DNA of 54,960 bases from Oscillospiraceae bacterium (GTDB lineage Bacteria; Bacillota; Clostridia; Oscillospirales; Oscillospiraceae), in assembly GCA_902779945.1 (NCBI GenBank), contig CACZDN010000012.1:1-54960 (forward strand), read 5' to 3'. The notes beneath the pieces are model-generated. The model did no database searches. It was not told the DNA's origin and worked only from the letters and a program-made list of their open reading frames with translations. Below, piece after piece: positions 2,571 to 36,297 of this stretch. Made by a program: the position numbers and the translations under genes. Positions within the stretch are counted from its first letter, which is position 1; every line of letters starts with the position of its first letter.

Positions 2571-2618
2571 AAAAAGCACGTTGAAATCGTAACAGATTAC
2601 GATTTCAACGTGCTTTTT
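2571..2618. terminator. Strong bidirectional intrinsic terminator
   Basis: A perfect 22-bp inverted repeat (arms 2571-2592 and 2597-2618) with a four-base loop has an A run on one side and a T run on the other. It therefore works in both directions. It ends the plus-strand ABC exporter region and the long minus-strand operon whose last gene is ilvE. Confidence 0.9.
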
Positions 2619-2689: not shown

Positions 2690-3775
2690 TCAGAAGAGCT
2701 TGTAGGTCCAGCCCATGTCGTCCGCGACAGCGCCGGTCTGCATCCCGTAGAGGGTATCGTAGAGCTTCTGCGCCACAGGGCCGACCTTCTCGTCCGCGAC
2801 CTTGATGTCGGTGCCCTTGTAGTTCAGGCAGCCGATGGGCGAGATGACCGCGGCGGTGCCGCTGGCAAAGATCTCCTGGAGGGTGCCGTCCTTGGAGGCG
2901 GCGATGATCTCGTCGATGGCGAGCTTGCGCTCAGAGACCTTGACGCCCCACTTCTTAAGCAGACGGATGACGGAGTCGCGGGTGATGCCGGGCAGGATCG
3001 TGCCGGAGTCCAGGGGGGCGGTGATGACCTCGTCGTTGATGCGGAAGAAGGCGTTGGAGGTGCCGATCTCCTCGACGTACTTGTGCTCGGCCGCGTCAAG
3101 CCAGAGCACGTCCTTGCAGTGGTACTGCATGGCGTCGAGAGAGGCGCGCATACCGCCGCCGTAGTTGCCGCCGACCTTGGCAAAGCCCGTGCCGCCGCGG
3201 GCCGCGCGGATATAGGTGTCCTGCACGAAGATGCGCGTGGTGGACAGGCCGCCGTCGTTGGCCGCGTAGTAGGAGCCGGTCGGGGTCAGGATGATCATGA
3301 AGCGGTAGTGCTTGGCGGGAAGAACGGAGAAGGAGACCTCATCCCCGAAGATGAAGGGGCGGATATACAGCGCCGTGCCGGGAGAGGAGGGCACCCAGTC
3401 GCGGTCCTCCCAGATGACGGCCTTGACCGCCGCGAGGAAGAGGTCGCCGGGCAGCTCCGGGATGCACATACGCTCGCAGGTGCGGGCCATGCGGGCAATG
3501 TTCATGTCGGGGCGGAAGATCTGAACCGAGCCGTCGGCCGTCTTGTAGGCCTTCATGCCCTCAAACATCATCTGCGCGTAGTGCAGCACGCAGGAGGCGG
3601 GCTCGATCTCGATGGGGGCGTGGGGAACGACGCGGCCGTCATGCCAGCCCTGACCCTCGTCCCAATCCATGACGAACATGTGGTCGGTGAAGTATTTGGC
3701 GAAGCCCAGCTTGCTCTCGTCCTCGGGCCGGGGCTTGGGGTTGGTCGTACGGGTCACGGGGAAATTGTATTCCAT
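2690..3775 (-). CDS. ilvE: Branched-chain amino acid aminotransferase
   Basis: This 361-residue fold-type IV PLP enzyme interconverts Val, Leu and Ile with their 2-oxoacids using glutamate/2-oxoglutarate. The Schiff-base lysine is K200 in GTGFAKVGGNYGG, and the EEIGTSNAFF segment is the usual active-site and phosphate-cup region. Its length and its N-terminal FTDHMFVMDW segment fit the larger BCAT class. The start has a clear AAAGGAG just upstream. It begins 12 bases after the omega-amidase-like gene and is the last gene of the Ile T-box operon, just before the terminator at 2571-2618. Its position with a VOR-type oxidoreductase suggests that it finishes amino acid synthesis rather than starting breakdown; that direction is an inference. 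Confidence 0.93.
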   Translation of the reverse strand: MEYNFPVTRTTNPKPRPEDESKLGFAKYFTDHMFVMDWDEGQGWHDGRVVPHAPIEIEPASCVLHYAQMMFEGMKAYKTADGSVQIFRPDMNIARMARTCERMCIPELPGDLFLAAVKAVIWEDRDWVPSSPGTALYIRPFIFGDEVSFSVLPAKHYRFMIILTPTGSYYAANDGGLSTTRIFVQDTYIRAARGGTGFAKVGGNYGGGMRASLDAMQYHCKDVLWLDAAEHKYVEEIGTSNAFFRINDEVITAPLDSGTILPGITRDSVIRLLKKWGVKVSERKLAIDEIIAASKDGTLQEIFASGTAAVISPIGCLNYKGTDIKVADEKVGPVAQKLYDTLYGMQTGAVADDMGWTYKLF

Positions 3776-3787
3776 GGTGGTTCTCCT

Positions 3788-4573
3788 TTAGATTTTATAG
3801 AGTTCGGGGCGTCTGTCCCGGAAGACGTGGATGCTGTTTCGGATCTGCTCCTTCACGGCGAAATCGCAGTCGGCGAGGATGATCTCCTCCCCCGGCCCGG
3901 CCTCGGCGAGGACCGTGCCCCAGGGGTCATAGACCGCGGAGAAGCCGCCGTAGACCGTCTCCCCCGCTGTGCCGCAGCCGTTGCAGCAGGCGAGGAAGAT
4001 CTGGTTTTCGATGGCGCGGGCGCGGTTCAGGGTCTGCCAGTGGGCGACGCGGACAGCCGGCCACTGCGCGGGGGCGAAGAGCAGGTCGATCCCCCGGAGG
4101 GCGAGAGAGCGCGTGAGCTCCGGGAAGCGCAGATCATAACAGATGATGAGGCCGCAGCTGACACCGTCGAGCGTGAAGGTGCAGAGATGATCGCCGGGGG
4201 TGAAATATTCATGCTCCCCCATCGGGGTGAAAAGGTGGGTCTTGTCGTAGGAGGCGACGCACGCGCCCGTGCGGTCGAAGACGTACGCGGTGTTATAAAC
4301 CCTGTCGCCGCGCCTTGTCACCGCGCTGCCGGCGACGATATTGACACCGAGGCGCTCCGCGAGCTCCCCGAAGGTCCCGCGCACGCGCTCCCCTTCGGGG
4401 TCGGCGAGCGCGGGCAGATCCTCCCGCGGGAAGAAGCCGAGGTTAAAGGTCTCGGGCAGGAGCAGGACGTCCGCCCCCCGGGCGGCCGCCTCCTCGCACA
4501 GCCCGCGGGCGCGGGCCAGGTTGAAGGCGGCGGCACCCAGGCGGACATCCATCTGAAGGCAGGCGATTTTCAC
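3788..4573 (-). CDS. Carbon-nitrogen hydrolase, omega-amidase (YafV/Nit2)-like
   Basis: This 261-residue nitrilase-superfamily protein has the catalytic triad visible: Glu41 in LLPETFNLGF, Lys111 in SYDKTHLF and Cys145 in ICYDLRFPE. The C-terminal IHVFRDRRPELY is typical of YafV/Nit2 omega-amidases, which hydrolyse the amides of 2-oxoacids such as 2-oxoglutaramate. Its ATG overlaps the stop of the gamma subunit gene by four bases, so translation is probably coupled. In an operon of 2-oxoacid enzymes and a transaminase, a role in cleaning up 2-oxoacid amides would make sense, but the true substrate is unknown. Confidence 0.82.
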   Translation of the reverse strand: MKIACLQMDVRLGAAAFNLARARGLCEEAAARGADVLLLPETFNLGFFPREDLPALADPEGERVRGTFGELAERLGVNIVAGSAVTRRGDRVYNTAYVFDRTGACVASYDKTHLFTPMGEHEYFTPGDHLCTFTLDGVSCGLIICYDLRFPELTRSLALRGIDLLFAPAQWPAVRVAHWQTLNRARAIENQIFLACCNGCGTAGETVYGGFSAVYDPWGTVLAEAGPGEEIILADCDFAVKEQIRNSIHVFRDRRPELYKI

Positions 4574-5109
4574 GCCCGGTACTCCTTCCCGATCTCGATG
4601 GCCTTGAGGTTCACGCCCAGAAGATCCATCTTGCGGGCGGGAATCACATGCTTGAGAGCCTCCTCCACGGTCCCGTCCTTAATACAGCCGGTCTCGCGGA
4701 TGACGGTGCCGAAGAGGATCATGTTGGCGAGATTGCCGAGCCCCTGCTCCTTGGCAATCTGCGTCGCGGGCACGTAGTACACGTCCACATCGTCGCGCGC
4801 GACCTTGCGGGTGATGAGGGTGGAGTCGACAAAGATCTTGCCGCCGGGGACGACCGTGCTCTCGTACTTGTCGAGAGACGGGGCGTTCATGACGATCAGC
4901 ACGTTCGGATGCTGCACGATGGGCGAGCCCACGGGATCGTCGGAGAGGATGACATTGCAGTTGGCGGTGCCGCCGCGCATCTCTGGCCCGTAGGAGGGCA
5001 GCCAGGAGAGCTGGCGCTTTTCGATCAGGCCGGCGTAGGCCAGCACCTTGCCGATGAACAGCAGGCCCTGCCCGCCGAAGCCGGCGATTACGATTTCATG
5101 ATGAGCCAT
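4570..5109 (-). CDS. 2-oxoacid:ferredoxin oxidoreductase, gamma subunit
   Basis: This 179-residue protein has the N-terminal IVIAGFGGQGLLFIGKVLAY segment that defines the gamma (POR/KOR catalytic) domain. GPEMRGGTANCNVILS is the other conserved motif. Gamma subunits sit at the interface with the alpha and beta subunits and help bind CoA. It starts three bases after the beta gene and overlaps the next gene by four bases, so it is part of a tightly packed operon. The length is normal for the family. Confidence 0.9.
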   Translation of the reverse strand: MAHHEIVIAGFGGQGLLFIGKVLAYAGLIEKRQLSWLPSYGPEMRGGTANCNVILSDDPVGSPIVQHPNVLIVMNAPSLDKYESTVVPGGKIFVDSTLITRKVARDDVDVYYVPATQIAKEQGLGNLANMILFGTVIRETGCIKDGTVEEALKHVIPARKMDLLGVNLKAIEIGKEYRA

Positions 5110-5112
5110 CTT

Positions 5113-5850
5113 TTACGCCTCCTTATCCCGGAACACGCCGAGCGGGTACTGGGGAATCATGGCCTCGTCGATCCACTGGAGGGCCTTCTGCGGCGTCATG
5201 CCCCAGTTGGTGGGGCAGGCGGAGAGGACCTCGATAAAGGAGAAGCCCTTGCCGTCCACCTGGTTCTGGAAGGCCTTCTTGATGGCGCGCTTGGCGTTTC
5301 TGACGTTCTTGACGCTGTTGACGGTGACGCGCTCGAGATAGGCCGGGGCGTCGAGGGTGGCCAGAAGCTCGCACACGCGGATGGGGTAGCCCTGGGTCTT
5401 GGGGTCGCGGCCGTAGGGCGAGGTCTGGGTGACCTGACCGATGAGGGATGTGGGGGCCATCTGGCCGCCGGTCATGCCGTAAATGGCGTTGTTGATGAAG
5501 ATCACGGTGATGTTCTCCCCGCGGGCCGCGGTGGAGACGGTCTCGCACATGCCGATGGAGGCCAGGTCGCCGTCGCCCTGGTAGGCGAAGACGATGTTGT
5601 CGGGCAGGGCGCGCTTGACGCCGGTTGCGACCGCGGGCGCGCGGCCGTGGGCGGCCTCGACCATGTCGCAGTTGAAGTAGTTGTAGGCCAGCACGGAGCA
5701 GCCGACCGGGGCAATGCCGACGGTCCTGCCCTCGATGCCGAGCTCGTCGATCGCCTCGGCGACCAGACGGTGCACGATGCCGTGGGTGCAGCCCGGGCAG
5801 TAGTGCAGGACGGTATCGGTCAGGGCATGGGGCTTTTCAAACACGATCAT
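5113..5850 (-). CDS. 2-oxoacid:ferredoxin oxidoreductase, TPP-binding beta subunit
   Basis: This 245-residue subunit binds thiamine diphosphate and an iron-sulfur cluster. Visible motifs are [14 protein letters not shown] near the N-terminus and the TPP motif [12 protein letters not shown] followed by [11 protein letters not shown], where Mg-TPP and the substrate are held. The PTSLIG...[11 protein letters not shown] region is as in VOR/KOR enzymes. The CDS starts with a four-base overlap with the alpha gene. Together with the alpha, gamma and ferredoxin subunits it makes a complete CoA-acylating oxidoreductase that can run towards oxidation or towards reductive carboxylation. Confidence 0.92.
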
Positions 5851-6917
5851 GCTTCATTTCCTCCTTCTGCGATTTTCTGGATGTGGGCGAGCACCTCGTC
5901 CGGGGTGGGGATCATGCCGCCGACGCGGTTGCAGAGCGCGACGGGCCTGCTGCAGCGGATGGCAAGCTCGACATCCTGCTTCATCTGGCCCATGTTCATC
6001 TCGACGCAGAGGAAGGCGTTTACCTTCTCCGCCGCCGCGGCGAGCGCCTGCTTCGGGAAGGGCCAGAGGGTGATGGGCCGGAGCATACCGACCTTGATGC
6101 CCTGCTTTCTGGCCTCGACGATGGCGTTGCGGGAGACGCGGGCGGTGATGCCGCAGGCCACAATGCAGATTTCCGCGTCGTCCATCAGGTACTCCTCCCA
6201 CAGGGCCTCGGTCTTCTCGATCCCGGCGTAGCGCTCAAAGCGCTGGAAGTTGAGCTTTTCCAGCTCGTCCGGGGAGAGGTAGAGGGAGTTGACGATGTTG
6301 TGGGGGCGCTTCATCTCGGTGCCGGTAGCGGCCCAGGGATTGTCGTCCCCGAAGGCGTTGGCGGGCTCAGGCAGGACCACGGGCTCCATCATCTGGCCCA
6401 TGGTACCGTCGGCCAGCAGCATGGCGGGCATACGGTACTTCCATGCCAGATGCAGGGCGCGGCCGGTGAGATCCGCCATCTCCTGCACGGAGGACGGGGC
6501 GAAGACCAGGATGTGGAAATCGCCGTGGCCGGGGCCGCGGGTGACGAAGTCATAGTCGGACTGGGAGGGCTGGATGCCGCCGAGACCGGGGCCGCCGCGC
6601 TGGACGTTGACGATGAGGGCGGGCAGATCCGCGCCCGCGAGGTAGGAGATGCCCTCCGCCTTGAGGGAGATGCCGGGGCTGGAGGAGGAGGTCATGGCGG
6701 GCTTGCCGGTGGCGGCGACGCCGTAGACCATGTTGATCGCGGCGATCTCGCTCTCGGCCTGGAGGAAGGTGCCGCCGATCTTGGGCATCTTCTTGGCCAT
6801 GTAGGCCGCGACCTCGGTCTGCGGCGTGATGGGGTAGCCGAAGTAATGCCGGCAGCCGGCCAGAATGGCGGCCTCGGCGATGGCCTCGTTCCCTTTCATG
6901 AGGACGGTTTCTTTCAT
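5847..6917 (-). CDS. vorB: 2-oxoacid (3-methyl-2-oxobutanoate type):ferredoxin oxidoreductase, alpha subunit VorB
   Basis: This 356-residue alpha subunit starts [18 protein letters not shown], with GGAAAGGAG upstream. An in-frame start 78 bases earlier lacks a ribosome site and lies inside the ferredoxin gene. Conserved features are [23 protein letters not shown], the [16 protein letters not shown] segment and GHGDFH. These match subunits annotated VorB, from enzymes that prefer branched-chain 2-oxoacids. Substrate choice between 2-oxoisovalerate-type and 2-oxoglutarate cannot be settled from sequence by eye. The neighbouring ilvE and the Ile-type T-box favour branched substrates. Confidence 0.87.
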
Positions 6918-6931
6918 ACCCTGCTCCTTTC

Positions 6932-7138
6932 CTATCTCTCCACGGTGATGACGCAGTCGGGGCACATCATTGCGCAGCTTGCGCAGCCGATGCACTCCTC
7001 GGGCTTCGTCAGCTCCACGGGGGAATATCCCTTCTGGTTGAGTCTGGTTTTAGAAAGGGCGAGTATCTGCTTCGGACACGCGGCCACACACAGGCCGCAG
7101 CCCTTGCATATCTCCTCTCTAAAGGTTAGTTTTGCCAA
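6932..7138 (-). CDS. 2-oxoacid:ferredoxin oxidoreductase, 2[4Fe-4S] ferredoxin subunit
   Basis: This 68-residue protein has two cluster motifs, [13 protein letters not shown] and [13 protein letters not shown], each with four cysteines. It is the delta subunit that carries electrons between the TPP site and external ferredoxin. The gene overlaps the end of the preceding ParA-like gene by 20 bases and lies 14 bases before vorB. The length and position fit VOR/KOR-type four-subunit enzymes. Confidence 0.92.
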
Positions 7139-7820
7139 GGCTGGTCCCTTCTTTCTCCATGTAGTATAGTTGCATGATGTCTATAGGAAAGAAATTGCTG
7201 ACTTTGTTGTACAGCTCGTCGCCGAGCTTTCTCGCCCCGCAGCTCATCTTGACGGGCAGGCCGGTCCTCGCGCTCACTTCCTCGGCGAAGCGCTGTCCGG
7301 CGATCACGTCCCCCGCACTTGTCAGCGGGCCGAGATTCGTGTTGTTGACGATGGCGGTGAAGGGCAGGGCGCAGGCGGCCTCGATCTCATAAAAAACCTC
7401 GAGCGCGTCGTCCACCGTGCGCGTCAGGGGGCGGGAGCGGTTCAGGACGAAGAGCATTTCATAGTCCCCCTCCTCCCGGATGGCGGGCACATAGCGGCCC
7501 AGGGCGAGGGCGCCGCGGTCGTCGCCGCCGACGTCGATGACCCCGTGGGCGCTGCGGTCGTCCAGGAGGGAGTAGACCTCCCCCGGCAGAGCGGGCAGAT
7601 CGACGTTGGAGTTTGCGTACTCCGAGGAGATCAGGCGTATGCCCGCCTCGCGGAGCTGCGCCTCGCCGTCCTTGGTGCGGAAGTAGGGGTTGACGATGTC
7701 CAGGTCCGCGACCGTGACCTTGAGCCCCTGCCGCCGCAGCCACAGGGCGTAGTTGAGGGCGATATTGGTTTTTCCGCTGCCGTAATGCCCGGCAAAAAGG
7801 GTAAGTCGTTTATAATTCAT
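7119..7820 (-). CDS. ParA/MinD-like P-loop ATPase of unknown role
   Basis: This 233-residue protein opens with a P-loop, [18 protein letters not shown], followed by [15 protein letters not shown], a Walker A' type aspartate segment as in the SIMIBI/ParA group. [12 protein letters not shown] resembles a Walker B region. No membrane segment or extra domain is seen. It sits between the acyl-CoA synthetase gene and the ferredoxin gene of the oxidoreductase. A role in assembling or delivering a cofactor to the oxidoreductase is possible but only inferred. No strong ribosome site is seen; translation may depend on the mRNA from upstream. Confidence 0.75.
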
Positions 7821-7831
7821 AGGTCAAATCC

Positions 7832-7878
7832 GTCCGCGAAGCGGACACCATAACTCCACTCTCCACTCTCCACTCTCC
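7832..7878. repeat. Short inverted repeat and CTCCACT tandem repeat
   Basis: In the 66-base gap between two operon genes, GTCCGC-gaa-GCGGAC (7832-7846) is followed by about three and a half copies of CTCCACT (7854-7878). It looks like a small intergenic repeat insertion. The hairpin lies close to the next gene's start and could affect its translation. Confidence 0.6.
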
Positions 7879-7886
7879 AAACTGAT

Positions 7887-10184
7887 TTACAGCTTGTTTC
7901 TCATGATCTTCCCGCTGATGGTCTTGGGAAGCTCATCCCTGAACTCGACGATGCGCGGGTACTTGTAGGGGGCGGTATGGGCTTTGACGTAGTTCTGGAT
8001 CTCCTTCTTGAGCTCCTCCGTGCCCTCCTTGCCCTTGACGAGCACGATGCTGGCCTTGACGACCTGGCCGCGGATCTCGTCCGGGGCCGCACTGACGCCG
8101 CACTCGAGCACGTAGGGCAGCTCCATGATGACGTTTTCGATCTCAAAGGGTCCGATGCGGTAGCCGGAGGACTTGATGACATCGTCCACGCGGCCGACGT
8201 ACCAGTAGAAGCCGTCCTCGTCGCGCCAGGCCTCGTCGCCGGTGTGGTAGCAGCCGTCGTGCCAGACCTCGCGGGTCTTCTCGGGCTCCTGATAGTAGCC
8301 GAGGAAGAGGCCGCACTTTCCGGGGCCGTTCTCGTCGGCGTGGACGACGATCTCGCCGCTGATGCCGTCCTCGACGGGTTTGCCGTCGCGGTCCAGGATG
8401 TCCACGCCGTAGCCGGGGACGGGCTTTCCCATGGAGCCCGGCTTGATCGTGCCGCCCAGGAGATTGGCGATGCCGAGGGTCATTTCCGTCTGGCCGAAGC
8501 CCTCCGCCACCTTGAGGCCCGTGAGCTTTTCAAACTGGTAGAAGACCTCGGGGTTGAGCGCCTCGCCCGCCGTCGTGGCGTGGCGGATGGAGGAGAGGTC
8601 AAACTTGGAAATGTCGCTCTTGATGAGCATACGGTACATGGTGGGCGGGGCGCAGAAGGTGGTGATGTTGTACTTTGCGAACATGGGCAGGATCTTCTCC
8701 GCGTCGAAGCGGTCGAAGTCATAGGTGAAGACCGCGCCCTCGCACAGCCACTGGCCGTAGAGCTTGCCCCAGAGCGCCTTGCCCCAGCCGGTCTCGGAGA
8801 TCGTGAAGTGCAGCCCGTCGCGCTCGACCTGGTGCCAGTAACGCGCCGTGACGAAGTGGCCGAGAGCGTACTTGCAGCTGTGCAGCGCCATCTTGGGGTA
8901 GCCGGTGGTGCCGGAGGTGAAGAACATGAGCATGGGATCGTCCCCGCAGGGGGAATCCTCGCTCCGGCGATAGCGGCGGGAGAAGAGGCCGAACTCGCTG
9001 TCGTAGTCGTGCCAGCCTTCGCGCTTTCCGCCGACCAGAATTTTGGTGAGGCTGAGGCCGGCGGCCTTCTCGCCCAGCTCGACCTGATGGGCAACGTCCC
9101 CGTCCGCCGTGCAGAGGATGGCGGAGACGCCGGCGGCCCGGAAGCGGTACTCGAAATCGTGGGAGAGGAGCTGGTTCGTCGCGGGGATCGCGATGGCGCC
9201 CAGCTTGTGCAGGCCGAGGATGGCGAACCAGAACTGATAGTGCCGCTTGAGTACCAGCATCACGCGGTCGCCCTTTTTGATGCCGAGGGAGGTGAAATAG
9301 TTCGCGGACTGGGAGGAGGCGTCCTTGATGTCCTTGAAGGTGAAGCGCCGCTCCGTCATGTCGTTTGCGACATGGAGCATGGCGAGCTTCTCGGGGCTCT
9401 TGCGGGCGATCTCGTCCACGATGTCGAAGGCGAAGTTGAAGCTGTCCTGGTTCTTGAAGCGGATGTCCCGGAGTGCGCCGGAGGCGTCCTCCTCGGTCTC
9501 GATGAACTTCTCGCAGAGAAGCGGCTCGCGCTCGGGCTTTTCCTCGGGCTTGACCTCGGGCTTTTCCTCCTCGAACATGAGGCCGGGCTTCTGGACGGTC
9601 TCGTTCTCGGCCATGATCATGGCGAGGAAGAGGCAGTCCTGCCCGTCGATGGCGATCATGCCGTGGGGGGTGGAGCTGTCGTAATAGATGCTGTCGCCCT
9701 CGTGCAGGATCTCCTCATGCTCACCCACTCTGACGCGCAGCGCGCCCTTGACGATGAGGTCGAACTCCTGGCCGGCGTGCGTGGTGGTGTGGATGGGCTC
9801 GTTCTGGAGCTCCGGCGAGTACTGGTAGGTGACCCAGTAGGGCGTGGCCAGCTTCTTGCGGAAGAGGGCCGCCATGTTCTGGATGACGATGCCGTCCTCC
9901 ACAGCGGTGACGAGCCCCTGTCCTTTCCGCGTCACGGCGTAGGAGGTCAGCCTTGCGCTGCGGCCCTCGAGGAGCTGGATCGGCTCGACCCCCATGGCCA
10001 TCGCGCACTTGTGCAGGAAGGTAAAGGGCAGGTCGACGCGGCCGGACTCATACTCGAGGTACTGCGCCTCCGTGATGCCGGTGCGGGCGGCCATCTCCTC
10101 GGTGGAGAAGCCGACGATGTCGCGCAGCTCACGGATGCGGAGCGCGATCTGGAGAAGCTGGTTGTCTGCGGTTTGTACGTTCAT
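7887..10184 (-). CDS. HTH-cupin domain fused to an AMP-forming acyl-CoA synthetase
   Basis: This 765-residue protein starts at the ATG at 10184 (AGAAGGAG upstream), not at an upstream in-frame ATG inside the T-box. Residues about 10-65 form an XRE-type helix-turn-helix, and 115-190 a cupin with HTTTHAGQEFDLIVKG. A Glu/Pro/Lys linker at about 205-222 leads to an acyl-adenylate-forming domain (225-765). The domain has FFTSGTTGYPKMALH, FGQTEMTLG, YHTGDEAWRDEDGFYWYVGR and a C-terminal catalytic lysine in PKTISGKIMRNKL. It resembles medium/short-chain acyl-CoA synthetases, which make acyl-CoA from acid, ATP and CoA. It is the first gene after the Ile-type T-box. The natural acid is not known; 2-methylbutyrate or isobutyrate is my inference from context. 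Confidence 0.88.
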   Translation of the reverse strand: MNVQTADNQLLQIALRIRELRDIVGFSTEEMAARTGITEAQYLEYESGRVDLPFTFLHKCAMAMGVEPIQLLEGRSARLTSYAVTRKGQGLVTAVEDGIVIQNMAALFRKKLATPYWVTYQYSPELQNEPIHTTTHAGQEFDLIVKGALRVRVGEHEEILHEGDSIYYDSSTPHGMIAIDGQDCLFLAMIMAENETVQKPGLMFEEEKPEVKPEEKPEREPLLCEKFIETEEDASGALRDIRFKNQDSFNFAFDIVDEIARKSPEKLAMLHVANDMTERRFTFKDIKDASSQSANYFTSLGIKKGDRVMLVLKRHYQFWFAILGLHKLGAIAIPATNQLLSHDFEYRFRAAGVSAILCTADGDVAHQVELGEKAAGLSLTKILVGGKREGWHDYDSEFGLFSRRYRRSEDSPCGDDPMLMFFTSGTTGYPKMALHSCKYALGHFVTARYWHQVERDGLHFTISETGWGKALWGKLYGQWLCEGAVFTYDFDRFDAEKILPMFAKYNITTFCAPPTMYRMLIKSDISKFDLSSIRHATTAGEALNPEVFYQFEKLTGLKVAEGFGQTEMTLGIANLLGGTIKPGSMGKPVPGYGVDILDRDGKPVEDGISGEIVVHADENGPGKCGLFLGYYQEPEKTREVWHDGCYHTGDEAWRDEDGFYWYVGRVDDVIKSSGYRIGPFEIENVIMELPYVLECGVSAAPDEIRGQVVKASIVLVKGKEGTEELKKEIQNYVKAHTAPYKYPRIVEFRDELPKTISGKIMRNKL

Positions 10185-10228
10185 AATGATTCTCCTTCTG
10201 TCATCTGGGAGCCGTGTCCGCAAATGAA

Positions 10229-10497
10229 TAAAAAAGGCCCGCCCCAAATCTTGAGGCGAGCCTGAATAAACCCGCGGTACCACTCAAATTGCAGTCATGG
10301 ACTGCCGCTTCGGGCCCCAACAGGCCCTATCCCTTAACGCGGGCGAACGTGAGACGCCTACTTGCGCATACGCTTTCGGATCTCCGGCTCGGAAGTGATG
10401 GGCATTTGAAGCTGGCGTTTCCGACTCACACCGTCCGTCGGATCTCTGAGAGCGCTTCCCTTCAGCCGTCTTCGTCACAGCCTTTGTGAATGTTGCC
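10229..10497 (-). promoter_or_regulatory. T-box riboswitch leader, specifier AUC (isoleucine)
   Basis: The minus strand has the diagnostic T-box sequence TGGTACCGCG (10273-10282), which pairs with uncharged tRNA. Upstream is stem I with AGAGA and GGTGTGAG loop motifs. By the spacing known from the glyQS T-box (specifier followed by AUUCUUGAG), the specifier here is ATC at 10397-10399, followed by ACTTCCGAG. That predicts tRNA-Ile as ligand. A terminator hairpin follows the T-box sequence. The leader controls the eight-gene operon ending with ilvE. Confidence 0.9.
10230..10263 (-). terminator. T-box leader terminator
   Basis: On the minus strand AGGCTCGCC pairs with GGCGGGCCT and is followed by six T. 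It is the terminator alternative to the T-box antiterminator and lies 46 bases before the acyl-CoA synthetase start. Confidence 0.85.
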
Positions 10498-10501
10498 TCA
10501 A

Positions 10502-10530
10502 TTATTACCGCAACCGTGTTCATTTGTCAA
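10502..10530 (-). promoter_or_regulatory. Sigma-A promoter of the Ile T-box operon
   Basis: TTGACA (10525-10530) and TAATAA (10502-10507) are 17 bases apart on the minus strand, close to consensus. The promoter lies 57 bases beyond the end of the Leu T-box operon. No convincing terminator separates the two, only a weak inverted repeat at about 10537-10556, so read-through into this leader is possible. Confidence 0.85.
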
Positions 10531-10587: not shown

Positions 10588-13065
10588 TCAACTCAGATTC
10601 AGTCTTTTTGCCGCCTCCTCGCGCATCTTGTACTTGAGGATCTTGCCGGCGGCGTTCATGGGGAAGCTGTCGGTAAAGGTGATGTAGCGCGGGACCTTGT
10701 GGCGGGCCATGTGGTCGGCGATGTAGCTGCGCATTTCCTCCTCCGTCATGCTCTCGCCCTCCTTCAGGATGATGCAGGCGTAGGCCTCCTCGCCGTATTT
10801 CTTATCCGGCACGCCGATGACCTGCACGTCCTGCACCTTGGGGTGGGTGTAGATGAACTCCTCGATCTCCTTGGGGTAGATGTTCTCGCCGCCGCGAATG
10901 ATCATGTCCTTGAGCCTGCCGGTGATGCGGTAGCAGCCGTTCTCGTCCCGCTCGGCCAGGTCCCCGGAGTGGAGCCAGCCGTCGGCGTCCACGGTCTCGG
11001 CCGTGGCGCGGGGCATTTTATAGTAGCCCTTCATGGTGTTGTAGCCGCGCGAGCAGAACTCGCCCGTCTGGTTCGGGCCCAGCTCCCGCCCGGTCTCGGG
11101 GTCGATGATCTTGCACTCGACATGGGGGAAGGCGTAGCCCACCGTGTCGCAGCGCACGTCGATCGAATCGGTCCAGGCGGACATGGTGCTGCCGGGGGCG
11201 GACTCCGTCTGCCCGTAGACCGAGACGATGCCCCGCATGTTCATCTCCTCCGGCTGCGCTGCCCTGCGCATGAGCTCCGGCGGGCAGCCCGCGCCCGCCA
11301 TGATGCCGGTGCGCATGTGGGAGAAATCCGTCTTCCGGTAGTCGGGGTGGTTGAACATGGCGATGAACATCGTGGGCACGCCGTTGAAGCAGGTGATTTT
11401 TTCCTGCTGGATGCAGGCCAGCGAGCTCTTGGCGGAGAAGTACGGCATGGGGCAGAGCGTGGCCCCGTGCGTCATGGACGAGGTCATGGACAGCACCATT
11501 CCGAAGCAGTGGAACATGGGCACCTGGATCATCATGCGGTCCGCGGTGGACAGGCCCATGCGGTCGCCGATGCACTTGCCGTTGTTGATGACGTTGTAGT
11601 GCGTGAGCATGACGCCCTTGGGGAAGCCCGTCGTGCCGGAGGTGTACTGCATGTTGCACACGTCGTCCGGCTTGACCTGGGCGGCCATGGACAGCACCGT
11701 CTCCCGCGGGACCATGTCGGACAGGGCCATGGCCTCGTCAAAGGTCAGGCTTCCCTCCTGGCGGAAGTCCACGGTGATGACGTTTCTTAAAAACGGCAGC
11801 CTGCGGCAGTGGAGCGGGGTGTTCTTATCGTGGCCGCGGAGCTCCGGGCAGAGCTCGTTGATGATGGCGCGGTAGTTGGAGTCCAGGCACGACTCGATCA
11901 TGACGAGGGTGTGGGTGTCGGACTGGCGCAGGAGGTATTCGGCCTCGTGGACCTTGTAGGCGGTGTTGACCGTCACCAGGACCGCGCCGAGCTTGACCGT
12001 GGCCCAGAAGGTGATGTACCAGGCCGGGACATTGGTGGCCCAGACGGCGACCTTGCTGCCCGGCTTTACGCCGAGGTAGACCAGGGCGCGGGCGAAGTTG
12101 TCCACATCCTCGCGAAATTCCTCGTAGGTGCGGGTGTAGTCCAGCGTGGTGTACTTGAAGGCGTACTGGTCCGGAAACTCCTCGACCATGCGGTCAAGGA
12201 CCCGGGAGAAGGTCAGGTCCAGCAGCTCGTCCTTCTTCCAGACGTACTCGCCCGTGCCGTCGTGGTTGGGATAGAGGCGCTTTTTCTTGCCGCGGGTGTT
12301 TTCAAAGCGGCTCATGTAGTTGACGAAGTGCGGGAAGATGATGTCCGGGTCATCCATGTCCTCAAGCCACTCGGGCTTCCAGACAAGGGAGATGAAGCCG
12401 TCGTAGTCGATGGAGCCGAGGGCGCGGATCATCTCGTCGACAGGCAGCGCGCCCTCGCCGATGATGTTGTAGGTCCCCTGCTCGTCGGAGTCGCGGATAT
12501 GCACATGGCGCACGTAGGCGCCAAGGTTTTTGATGGTGGTGTCGGCGTCCTCGCCGCAGTCGTGGCAGGGATGGTGGATGTCCCAGAGTGCGGCGAGAAA
12601 GTCGCTGGCAAAGTCGTCCATCAGGGCGCGGAGCCTGCCCGTGTCGGCATAGATGCCGGTGGTCTTGACGAGCAGGGTGACCTCCGCCTTTTCGCACTTC
12701 GGCAGAAGGCCGGCAATGCGCTCTCGCGCCAGGTCCTCGTTCTCGCCGAGGGCGACGACGGAGACGTAGGGCGTGCGGATGCTGCCGGCGGTCTCGATGA
12801 GAAACGAAAGTTCGTCCAGCTGCGCGTCGGGGACCGTGAGGTCGATGGAGCTGTCAAGGCACGGGATGGCCATGCCCCGCTCCCGGAGCTTGCGCACGGT
12901 GCTCACGGCGTGGTAGCGGTCGAAGGGCGCGCCGCGCTCGATAAGGTCTTCGCGCTTGAAGAGATCGTAGAGCTCGATGCCGTTCATGCCGCTCTCGACG
13001 GCGCTCTCCAGCAGCTCGTCCCAGCCGAGACGCTGCCAGCCGCGTGTGGAAAAAGACAGCTTCAT
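10588..13065 (-). CDS. TIM-barrel (xylose isomerase-like) domain fused to an acyl-CoA synthetase
   Basis: This is an 825-residue two-domain protein. Residues 1 to about 260 look like a sugar-phosphate isomerase/AP-endonuclease-type TIM barrel (PF01261-like). It starts MKLSFSTRGWQRLGWDELLE and has DIHHPCHDCGE and VRHVHIRDSD, which could bind metal. Residues about 280-825 are an AMP-forming acyl-CoA synthetase, with MQYTSGTTGFPKGVMLTHYN, LHSGDLAERDENG, RITGRLKDMIIRGGENIYP and the C-terminal lysine in NAAGKILKYKM. Its ATG overlaps the stop of the LeuA-like gene by four bases. Under a leucine-type T-box, a branched acid such as isovalerate is a reasonable substrate guess. The role of the TIM barrel is unknown. 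Confidence 0.85.
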   Translation of the reverse strand: MKLSFSTRGWQRLGWDELLESAVESGMNGIELYDLFKREDLIERGAPFDRYHAVSTVRKLRERGMAIPCLDSSIDLTVPDAQLDELSFLIETAGSIRTPYVSVVALGENEDLARERIAGLLPKCEKAEVTLLVKTTGIYADTGRLRALMDDFASDFLAALWDIHHPCHDCGEDADTTIKNLGAYVRHVHIRDSDEQGTYNIIGEGALPVDEMIRALGSIDYDGFISLVWKPEWLEDMDDPDIIFPHFVNYMSRFENTRGKKKRLYPNHDGTGEYVWKKDELLDLTFSRVLDRMVEEFPDQYAFKYTTLDYTRTYEEFREDVDNFARALVYLGVKPGSKVAVWATNVPAWYITFWATVKLGAVLVTVNTAYKVHEAEYLLRQSDTHTLVMIESCLDSNYRAIINELCPELRGHDKNTPLHCRRLPFLRNVITVDFRQEGSLTFDEAMALSDMVPRETVLSMAAQVKPDDVCNMQYTSGTTGFPKGVMLTHYNVINNGKCIGDRMGLSTADRMMIQVPMFHCFGMVLSMTSSMTHGATLCPMPYFSAKSSLACIQQEKITCFNGVPTMFIAMFNHPDYRKTDFSHMRTGIMAGAGCPPELMRRAAQPEEMNMRGIVSVYGQTESAPGSTMSAWTDSIDVRCDTVGYAFPHVECKIIDPETGRELGPNQTGEFCSRGYNTMKGYYKMPRATAETVDADGWLHSGDLAERDENGCYRITGRLKDMIIRGGENIYPKEIEEFIYTHPKVQDVQVIGVPDKKYGEEAYACIILKEGESMTEEEMRSYIADHMARHKVPRYITFTDSFPMNAAGKILKYKMREEAAKRLNLS

Positions 13066-14477
13066 GCCTCACCCTCCTCGTATGCGATCTTGTTGAGTGC
13101 GTTGACGTATGCCATGATGCTGGAATACACGATGTCGGTGGAGATGCCGCGCCCGGAGTAGAGCCGCCCGTTGGACACGAGGCGCACCACCGTCTCGCCC
13201 ATGGCCTCGCGGCCCTCGGTGACGGCGCGGATCTGAAAATCGTCCAGCTCGTAATGGCGGTTGACCACCTTTTCGAGGGCGAGGAAGGAGGCGTCGATCG
13301 GGCCGTCGCCCAGGGCCACGCCCTCCAGGATCTCCCCCTGGCGGCTGAGCTTGAGGTGGGCCATGGCGGAGATGTTGCTGCCGCTGTTGATGACATAGCT
13401 CTCCACCGTGTAGCTCTGCGGGACCTGCAGGGCCACGGAGGCGATGATCGCGTCCAGCTCGCGCGCGCCGACCTGCTCCTTGTGGCGCAGCAGGTCCTGC
13501 ACGGCCTCCCACACGGCCGCGGTATCCTCCGGGCTGAGATCGTAGCCCAGGTCGCGCGCAGCCTTTTCCACGCTCGCTTCGTCGTCCCCGGGGGCGAGGG
13601 AGAGCTCTCTCGCCGTGTCCTGGACCCCGTCGTCAAAGGGCGAGCTCTTGCTGCGCTTGGTCTGGCACAGCCAGACGATCTGCCGCACGATGCGCTTGAG
13701 CTCCACCGTATGCAGGGGGCAGCTCAGGCCGAAGAGCTCGGCCCGCGCGTCCAGGATGCCGGCCACGTTCTGGAGGGAAGCGGTATCCCCGACGGCGGCG
13801 GTCTTGAGCTCCCGCGCCCCGGCGCGCGCCGCGGCGACGGTGCAGGCGTCCGCCATGGCCATGGTGTTGGCGCAGGCGACGCCGAGCGTCACGTCCGCGA
13901 GGGCGGGCACCGCGTCGAGGAGACCGCGCAGGAAGGCCGCCAGCTCCTCGGGCAGGAGGGTGCCGGTCGCGTCGCAGACCGTGACGGTCTTCGCGCCGGC
14001 TGCGACGGCGGTCTCGATGGCCTTTTGGAGAAACGCCGCGTCGCTGCGGGTGGCGTCTCCGGCGATGAATTCCACATTGTCCGTGAGCTCCGCGCAGGCG
14101 CGCACGGTGCTGTCGATGCTCTGCAGCATGGCGTCCGGCTTCTTGCGGGACAGGTATTCCATCTGCACCGTGCTCACCGGGGCCGGGACCTGCAGCCGCG
14201 GATGCCGCGCCGTCTTCAGCGCCTCCCAGGTCTGGGCAACGCTCCCGGCGTCCAGCTCCACGGGCACGGCGACGATGCTGTTTTTGACCGCCGCCGCGAT
14301 GGACTTGATGCGCAGCGCGTCCGCCCGCGCGGAGCGTATGCCCTCGATTTCGATGACGGAGACCTCCAGCCTGTCCAAAAGCTTTGCAACCTCCAGCTTG
14401 CCCTTGAAGCTCAGGCTCTGATCGCCCTGCTTTGCGAGCTGCTTCATGGTGATGTCACTGATCCGTATTTTTTCCAT
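13062..14477 (-). CDS. LeuA-like protein without DRE-TIM catalytic residues, with leucine-regulatory domain
   Basis: This 471-residue protein has the 2-isopropylmalate synthase layout: a TIM-barrel region (about 1-270) and a C-terminal LeuA dimerisation/leucine-binding domain (about 350-470, GDGPIDASFLALEK and GRGISTDIVYSSIMAYVNAL). The catalytic part is altered. The DTTLRDGEQ motif is DITMKQLAK, so the Arg and the metal-binding Asp are K12 and Q13. The metal HxH of HTHDDLG is ACANTM (A201-C202-A203). It therefore probably cannot do the acetyl-CoA condensation. The start at 14477 follows AAGGAAG; ATGs at 14495-14498 sit against the leader terminator. It is the first gene of the Leu T-box operon. 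A leucine-sensing or scaffold role is inferred. Confidence 0.82.
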   Translation of the reverse strand: MEKIRISDITMKQLAKQGDQSLSFKGKLEVAKLLDRLEVSVIEIEGIRSARADALRIKSIAAAVKNSIVAVPVELDAGSVAQTWEALKTARHPRLQVPAPVSTVQMEYLSRKKPDAMLQSIDSTVRACAELTDNVEFIAGDATRSDAAFLQKAIETAVAAGAKTVTVCDATGTLLPEELAAFLRGLLDAVPALADVTLGVACANTMAMADACTVAAARAGARELKTAAVGDTASLQNVAGILDARAELFGLSCPLHTVELKRIVRQIVWLCQTKRSKSSPFDDGVQDTARELSLAPGDDEASVEKAARDLGYDLSPEDTAAVWEAVQDLLRHKEQVGARELDAIIASVALQVPQSYTVESYVINSGSNISAMAHLKLSRQGEILEGVALGDGPIDASFLALEKVVNRHYELDDFQIRAVTEGREAMGETVVRLVSNGRLYSGRGISTDIVYSSIMAYVNALNKIAYEEGEA

Positions 14478-14498
14478 GCTGCGCACTTCCTTCATCAC

Positions 14499-14537
14499 AA
14501 AAAAGATAACCCCCGAAGTCCCTCAGGACCTCAGGGG
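14499..14537 (-). terminator. T-box leader terminator
   Basis: On the minus strand CCCCTGAGGTCC pairs with GGACTTCGGGGG (12 bp with two G-U pairs) and is followed by a T run at 14499-14504. It ends 22 bases before the LeuA-like start. Confidence 0.88.
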
Positions 14538-14769
14538 CGAATAGCAATTCGCGGTACCACCCTGCTTCTCCGCGCAAGCGCGGACTCTCTCGGGTTCCAA
14601 TAAACCCATGGCCTGTAACGGGGCCGCCCGTGATCCGCTATTCCATGCCGGGCATGTTTCGCAGATCCCGCTCAGGAATGAGACGCGCTCCGCTTCACGC
14701 ATCGGCTTGCACCAGACGCCGACTCTCTGTGCCGCTGTTCGGAGGCGATTTTCCCTCTTCGCATTTGAT
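14499..14769 (-). promoter_or_regulatory. T-box riboswitch leader, specifier CUC (leucine)
   Basis: The minus strand has AGGGTGGTACCGCG (core at 14550-14559), a stem I with AGAGAGTCGG and GGTGCAAG, and the pattern CTC-ATTCCTGAG at 14671-14682. In the glyQS T-box the specifier GGC is followed by AUUCUUGAG, so the specifier here is CTC (14680-14682), leucine. A terminator hairpin follows. The controlled genes are the LeuA-like gene and the TIM-ligase fusion. Confidence 0.92.
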
Positions 14770-36151: not shown

Positions 36152-36158
36152 AAGACTG

Positions 36159-36263
36159 TCTTCAGGGCAGGGTGTAATTCCCGACCGGCGGTATAGTCCG
36201 CGAGCCGTATGGCATGAACCGGTGTGATTCCGGTACCGACAGTAGAGTCTGGATGGAAGAAGA
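36159..36263 (+). promoter_or_regulatory. FMN riboswitch (RFN element)
   Basis: The conserved RFN blocks are in order: TCTTCAGGGCAGGGTG, TTCCCGACCGGCGGTAT, AGTCCGCGAGC, CCGGTGTGATTCCGGTACCG, ACAGTAGAGTCTGGATGGAA and a closing GAAGA. High FMN would favour termination at the hairpin that follows and so lower ribU expression. Confidence 0.97.
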
Positions 36264-36297
36264 CGCCCGGCGTGTTTGCCGGGGCGTTATTATGCCG

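Follow-up and report, generated by a model that had tools for sequence, protein, structure and literature searches.

The window analysed here, the whole 54,960-nucleotide stretch of contig CACZDN010000012.1 (positions 1 to 54,960, forward strand) in Oscillospiraceae bacterium assembly GCA_902779945.1, carries a T-box operon that we regard with high confidence as a tRNA-addressed, isoleucine-responsive salvage operon, made for the activation, reductive carboxylation and transamination of a branched acid. Its parts, read along the minus strand (10530 to 2571), are a promoter-like site, a T-box leader, a leader terminator, eight genes that follow each other closely or overlap slightly, and a terminator hairpin. 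The genes encode, in order, the acyl-coenzyme A (acyl-CoA) synthetase ACS1, a P-loop nucleoside triphosphatase (NTPase), a ferredoxin, the alpha, beta and gamma subunits of a 2-oxoacid:ferredoxin oxidoreductase (VOR), an amidase and the branched-chain aminotransferase IlvE.

By the known T-box mechanism, uncharged tRNA-Ile would base-pair with the leader at its AUC specifier and at its T-box sequence, the antiterminator would form, and the operon would be read. ACS1 would then convert environmental 2-methylbutyrate to 2-methylbutyryl-CoA, the VOR complex with reduced ferredoxin would carboxylate this to 3-methyl-2-oxovalerate, and IlvE would transaminate the latter to isoleucine. In relatives, a Val T-box would drive ACS2, a paralogue predicted to act on isobutyrate, along with the VOR common to both; the Leu counterpart would drive LeuAx, a LeuA homologue, and TIM-ACS, a TIM barrel-synthetase fusion predicted to act on isovalerate. 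The specifier codon would name the product, and hence the acid.

The isoleucine leader and its operon

The T-box score of the Ile leader (82.6 bits) is below the Rfam gathering score of 93, and the leader is therefore unlisted by a default Rfam scan; its E value across the whole genome is 2.5e-18, and that genome gives eight T-box matches with E values up to 0.001, this leader included. Its stem I was matched at 79.1 bits by the covariance model R1 described below, the window sequence being part of the R1 training set. The leader terminator overlaps the 3′ side of the antiterminator, and the two are mutually exclusive through the shared segment 10260-10252. The minimum-energy fold of the leader was more stable than those of shuffled sequences (z -2.5), yet the T-box shape was not returned by the fold alone. 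At the other end of the operon, the hairpin at 2618-2571 (z -7.8) was equalled in stability by none of 200 shuffles; a simple terminator scan gave no match at this place because the T run sits within the stem.

A first-pass annotation of this DNA had described a promoter, a T-box leader, eight packed genes and a strong terminator, all of which were located (Table 1). The HTH-cupin (helix-turn-helix and cupin) part and the acyl-CoA synthetase that it had listed are both present, but as one fused protein of 765 aa. IlvE was confirmed by its family cut-off, and the oxidoreductase set is complete, with alpha, beta, gamma and ferredoxin subunits all encoded in the operon. The name "omega-amidase-like" could not be established: the window amidase belongs to the nitrilase superfamily, and its best NCBIfam match reached 125 bits where the cut-off is 355.

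The specifier tracks the synthetase in relatives

Relatives were collected by a synthetase scan of genome contigs; of its 595 confirmed places, the 80 best were used as named ACS1 loci. All but one of these (79/80) are titled metagenome-assembled genomes, mostly of Oscillospiraceae or Clostridia, the exception being Erysipelotrichaceae bacterium NK3D112 (L094), and ruminant, deer or horse gut samples are named for 42 of the 80 best-listed loci (counted by hand). With 16 further stretches (L119-L134, where L119 is from the window's own genome), 96 stretches were mapped with the window proteins. The usual order was ACS1, its paralogue ACS2, P-loop NTPase, ferredoxin, alpha, beta, gamma and often IlvE. 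Among the 53 of the 80 named loci with at least 7.5 kb downstream of ACS1, 51 carry the NTPase-ferredoxin-alpha-beta-gamma series behind ACS1, 48 carry ACS2, 40 an IlvE-like aminotransferase and only 3 the amidase. For 45 of the 80, the fetched stretch also includes the leuAx unit.

A tree of 155 synthetase sequences, from which incomplete ones were excluded and three with internal stops dropped, contained clade A (n = 85; ACS1, with the window gene inside), clade B (n = 63; ACS2) and clade C (n = 7). The model R1 was built from 44 aligned stem I sequences, with compensatory changes in 12 of 14 predicted stem-I pairs, and at a limit of E 1 it gave 187 matches, spread over 97 sources. The codon was taken at a constant offset from the end of each match, and each leader was assigned to the nearest labelled gene downstream. 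All 83 matched leaders before ACS1 read ATC (Ile), which, with the Rfam covariance-model alignment, upholds the AUC specifier given in the first-pass annotation. Leaders before ACS2 read GTA (39), GTC (7) and TCG (1), those before clade C synthetases ATC (5) and TCA (1), and those before leuAx CTC (25), CTG (18) and CTT (1), the last group being Leu in 44/44. The TCG and TCA rows were corrected for a one-base register shift to GTC and ATC, respectively, giving Val in 47/47 leaders before ACS2. Two GTA leaders preceded incomplete synthetases, and five leaders (ATG, CTC, GTA, TCA, TTC) had no labelled gene. No R1 stem-I match was found before 2/85 ACS1, 16/63 ACS2 and 1/7 clade C genes; most of the ACS2 genes concerned stand close behind ACS1. 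That the codons vary while the amino acid is constant suggests conservation of the amino acid itself. Each of the three units keeps its own, and the specifier is coupled to the synthetase paralogue.

The six other T-boxes of the window's genome scored only 19-35 bits with R1, against 44-89 bits for the leaders of these units; therefore, the Ile, Val and Leu leaders look related to each other. In 14 stretches whose synthetases are unfused or more distant, R1 gave no match at E 0.1. Pattern-based specifier finders, with a loose and then a strict stem pattern, misread control T-boxes and were rejected, and the final counts are those of the covariance model.

The idea that the window's genome lacks ACS2 was also rejected, as a gene of the ACS2 clade with Ala468 is present elsewhere (G000:C9:11921-14167, on L119). 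No stem-I match precedes it; inspection by eye showed a short hairpin upstream and a stretch resembling a promoter. In this genome, therefore, the oxidoreductase stands behind the Ile T-box alone. In the sister genome (G027), unlike the window's genome, ACS2 (L121) is preceded by a Val (GTC) T-box.

Residue 468 and the predicted substrates

Among solved structures, ACS1 is nearest in sequence to 3etc (629 bits; next 343), which is MacsMa, the archaeal 2-methylbutyryl-CoA synthetase of Methanosarcina acetivorans. MacsMa is described in PMC10455477 as preferring 2-methylbutyrate. It is a 580-residue chain without the HTH-cupin part and matches ACS1 residues 241-762. When positions 85% fixed within each clade were compared, ACS1 and ACS2 differed at 10, of which eight are in the HTH-cupin part and two (468 and 483) in the AMP-binding part. 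Residue 468 is Gly in 85/85 ACS1 and 7/7 clade C proteins, as in MacsMa, and Ala in 63/63 ACS2. Paired with the leaders, the Ile specifier goes with Gly in 88/88 and the Val specifier with Ala in 46/46, and the two register-shifted rows agree.

Residue 468 stands after a GW motif, four residues before W472, which by the alignment offset corresponds to the acyl-pocket Trp of MacsMa. Ala occupies the position in 8biq, named 4-hydroxybutyrate-CoA ligase, and Val in the acetyl-CoA synthetase 9g79. By alignment rather than structure comparison, residue 468 would be the equivalent of Ile312 of acetyl-CoA synthetase. Ile312 is described as one of four residues of the acyl pocket, with Val there in a broader enzyme (PMC3477478). 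The extra methyl of Ala468 in the pocket would fit the smaller acid, isobutyrate, and ACS1 is proposed to be a 2-methylbutyryl-CoA synthetase.

De novo branched-chain genes in carriers

The first-pass annotation had proposed a genome check for ilvC and ilvD, and neither gene gave a match in the window's genome (G000; 85.8% complete) or in the sister genome (95% complete), whose ACS1 is 91% identical to that of the window. Among the 50 named ACS1 genomes (L039-L088), ilvC exceeded its cut-off in three, while all 14 controls passed; leuB exceeded its cut-off in 3 of 55 (the 50 named and five G genomes), and both counts cover the named genomes regardless of their completeness. leuAx-like genes are present in 53 of the 55, the exceptions being the L084 genome (G105), which has leuB, and G067, without a leuB match.

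A sample of the order comprised 246 genomes at least 90% complete, drawn evenly and not including the window's genome, with cut-offs of 1110 bits for ACS1 and 1000 bits for a second copy; the cut-offs were set after table inspection, and the genomes share ancestry. ilvC was found in 8/29 genomes with ACS1 and in 132/217 others (Fisher p 0.001), and in 1/21 genomes with ACS1 and a second copy against 139/225 others (p 2e-7). Single-copy ACS1 genomes had ilvC in 7/8. ilvC is rare in carriers, but a general rule that two copies mean no ilvC fails, as L063, L079 and L087 carry both copies and ilvC.

The Ile salvage reading of the first-pass annotation is thus supported by the Ile specifier, by a closest solved relative that prefers 2-methylbutyrate and by ilvC not over cut-off in 47/50 carriers, and none of the sequence-level observations that it had listed as contrary came true. 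The substrates, the direction of the reactions and the regulation in vivo are what we infer from sequence.

Evidence against the salvage reading and alternative explanations

A number of observations weigh against salvage. The absence of genes is argued from a source genome of the limited completeness given above. Of the oxidoreductase subunits, only alpha passes a VOR family cut-off (521 against 399), and beta and gamma pass none; the VOR sequence does not fix the substrate, and the VOR reaction is reversible. The best NCBIfam match of ACS1, MbcS (NF047394), scored 427.8 bits against a cut-off of 850. The coupling counts are of orthologues, which are dependent events, and 44 of the sequences trained R1. 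Some ACS1 genomes retain ilvC (8/29 of the order sample, and among the named genomes L063, L079 and L087). The leuB test is softer: only 9/14 controls pass, three carriers fall short of the cut-off (353) with 260-272 bits, and 34/55 genomes have some leuB match at E 1e-30 (136.6 bits in the window's genome), although such sub-cut-off matches may be related dehydrogenases. In the window's genus, 35/36 other genomes are without over-cut-off ilvC and 34/36 without ACS1; therefore, ilvC loss does not need the operon.

Reversible 2-oxoacid:ferredoxin oxidoreductases and bidirectional transaminases would also allow a catabolic use, in which branched 2-oxoacids are oxidised to branched acids for energy in a Stickland-type manner while the synthetase recycles acids. 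We consider this improbable, because the Ile T-box switches genes on at Ile shortage, AMP-forming synthetases favour activation, and carriers rarely have ilvC.

A role in primer supply, with the branched acyl-CoA from ACS1 going mainly to membrane fatty acids and VOR replacing Bkd, is suggested by the likeness of ACS1 to MbcS of Staphylococcus aureus, an AMP-forming synthetase described in PMC10026030 as activating 2-methylbutyrate and isobutyrate and feeding lipid synthesis. MbcS is the best family match of ACS1, but its cut-off is unmet; VOR and IlvE share the operon with ACS1, and one specifier per amino acid, three in all, is hard to square with a lipid role, so that primer supply as the main role seems to us very improbable, although a side role of this kind may exist. 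It is also very improbable that the synthetase takes some other acid, for instance an aryl one, with the operon working for another amino acid or in a pathway of a different kind. Sequence is a poor guide to the substrates of acyl-CoA synthetases, and relatives do have an aryl-type arm (see below), but that arm uses a different synthetase, Phe/Tyr specifiers and, in several loci, an IOR-type oxidoreductase, and ACS1 is close to MacsMa.

The adjoining leucine unit

A second unit adjoins the salvage operon upstream at 14768-10588, outside the region covered by the first-pass annotation, and consists of a Leu T-box, LeuAx and the TIM-ACS fusion. LeuAx shares its two Pfam domains with LeuA (2-isopropylmalate synthase) but differs in lacking the metal site and the GxGERxG motif. 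In an alignment of 45 LeuAx proteins (window included) with parts of two true LeuA sequences, the first His of the HxH metal ligands was present in 0/45 and the second in 1/45, and the G-E-R columns of GxGERxG were gaps in 45/45. The DTTLRDGEQ motif is degenerate, with Arg replaced by Lys in 34 and kept in 5 of the 45. All 16 NCBIfam matches of the window LeuAx were under their cut-offs. The LeuA_dimer regulatory domain (PF08502), in contrast, scored 107 bits in the window protein and 104-109 across the window and three relatives, and its motif G.G.S[TS]D is kept in 45/45. LeuAx may thus be a dead enzyme retained as a putative leucine sensor, which would be, as far as we know, a new kind of sensor.

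The TIM barrel of TIM-ACS is xylose-isomerase-like; where the most frequent form among relatives shows Glu (FISLEWKPEW), the window protein shows Val. At a second site, presumably that of a metal Glu, Lys is frequent.

An aromatic arm in relatives

A related T-box with the specifier UUC (Phe) was found at L042:15820-15927 (R1 62.7 bits; Rfam 131 bits, E 7e-31). Downstream are another acyl-CoA synthetase, IorA and IorB (both over cut-off), a PaaK-like ligase (499.8 against 646.3) and an aminotransferase. A T-box of the Phe or Tyr kind with an acyl-CoA synthetase is also seen at L142:3821-11025. At E 1e-150, the synthetase of this arm was present in 35/55 genomes and was not found in the window's genome. 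Among 30 such loci fetched, 14 had a stem I match, read by eye as TTC (Phe) in six and TAC (Tyr) in eight. IorA was within the fetched stretch in 17/30 loci, but in only 5/14 with a stem I match, and the link between T-box and IOR is therefore not constant. These loci suggest T-box-controlled Phe/Tyr synthesis from arylacetates. Rumen bacteria reportedly form Phe from phenylacetate (Allison, 1965). A Phe T-box in the window's genome was rejected as an aryl arm, as apparent pheS and pheT are downstream (judged by eye, without family search).

A wider proposal joins three parts: that a single Gly to Ala substitution close to the acyl-pocket Trp, accompanying the switch from an Ile to a Val specifier, sets 2-methylbutyrate versus isobutyrate; that the dead LeuA is a leucine sensor gating isovalerate activation; and that the same logic in relatives reaches Phe/Tyr via arylacetates and IOR. 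Taken jointly, this is tentative, and we think it slightly more apt to fail in some part than to hold throughout.

Relation to known systems

Branched acids have been known as growth factors for rumen bacteria for 60 years. Robinson and Allison in 1969, Allison and Peel in 1971 and Allison et al. in 1962 are said to have found that rumen bacteria convert 2-methylbutyrate to Ile, isobutyrate to Val and isovalerate to Leu. Reductive carboxylation of branched acids is described for Methanobrevibacter ruminantium in PMC2812497. The chemistry in these organisms is the same as that proposed here, but the accounts, in the portions of PMC7356843 and PMC2812497 covered, name neither an operon nor T-box control nor dedicated synthetases. 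As described in PMC2494555, the T-box specifier has been used for substrate prediction in amino acid genes. The leaders described here are of the same RNA class and would share its mechanism; they differ in that genes for the salvage of acids follow them and that each specifier has a synthetase of its own. The main text of PMC2494555 contains none of the words acyl-CoA, oxidoreductase and ferredoxin, and T-box control of such an operon was not found by title or abstract start in Creative Commons-licensed PubMed Central papers, a scope that leaves subscription papers and other T-box surveys outside.

The riboswitch class is known, and the chemistry has been known since the 1960s; we rate their combination, with a one-codon, one-acid logic, as new. 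The present analysis goes beyond the first-pass annotation with the three-way code, the Gly/Ala switch at residue 468, the finding that carriers rarely have ilvC, and a putative sensor resembling LeuA. The genes and the switch for a branched-acid need are now pointed to in many uncultured animal-gut Clostridia. The codons alone give substrate predictions for three synthetases, and residue 468 offers a one-residue test of specificity. Cross-feeding is also predicted, in that carriers should depend on branched acids from amino-acid fermenters.

Coordinates and further observations

Table 1. Features of the two T-box units in the window.
Feature	Position	Strand	Basis
Promoter-like site TTGACA-18-AATAAT	10501..10530	-	11/12 matches; shuffles mean 0.1
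T-box leader, RF00230	10249..10487	-	82.6 bits, E 2e-18, full model 1-219
Specifier AUC (Ile)	10397..10399	-	canonical slot of Rfam alignment, next base A
T-box sequence AGUGGUACC	10276..10284	-	Rfam alignment
Leader terminator, alternative to antiterminator	10235..10263	-	13 pairs + T run
ACS1, HTH-cupin-AMP-forming acyl-CoA synthetase, 765 aa, single fused protein	7887..10184	-	domain search, tree clade A
P-loop NTPase, ParA/MinD/SRP-like fold (SRP, signal recognition particle), conserved partner	7119..7820	-	domain search, structure model
Ferredoxin subunit, two-[4Fe-4S]	6932..7138	-	domain/family search
2-oxoacid:ferredoxin oxidoreductase alpha (VorB)	5847..6917	-	NF005507, 521 bits vs cut-off 399
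Oxidoreductase beta, thiamine diphosphate domain	5113..5850	-	domain/family search
Oxidoreductase gamma	4570..5109	-	PF01558
Nitrilase-superfamily amidase	3788..4573	-	domain/family search
IlvE branched-chain aminotransferase	2690..3775	-	NF009897, 448 bits vs cut-off 307
Operon-end terminator hairpin	2571..2618	-	22 bp, -35 kcal/mol
Second T-box leader, Leu	14530..14768	-	103.5 bits, E 8e-22
Specifier CUC (Leu)	14680..14682	-	Rfam alignment, R1 reading
LeuAx, LeuA homologue, metal site lost, regulatory domain kept	13062..14498	-	domain search, alignment
TIM barrel-acyl-CoA synthetase fusion, proposed isovaleryl-CoA synthetase	10588..13065	-	domain/family search

The P-loop NTPase has many invariant residues and is present in 51/53 operons of relatives. 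Its structure model (pLDDT 83.5) had SRP-type GTPases among the 50 matches listed, with a query TM-score of at most 0.58, and these model-based matches would not point to a function. At L042:12864-13895, after VOR gamma, where others have IlvE, there is an amino-acid dehydrogenase-like gene (best NCBIfam match ScyB, 361 against a cut-off of 600), which is a possible replacement for the transaminase. Distant synthetase relatives of 43-51% identity hold one to three internal stops in 13/13 full-length matches, as if two adjacent genes there encoded the HTH-cupin part and the synthetase. Elsewhere in the window, a flavin mononucleotide (FMN) riboswitch is present at 36154-36268 (113 bits).

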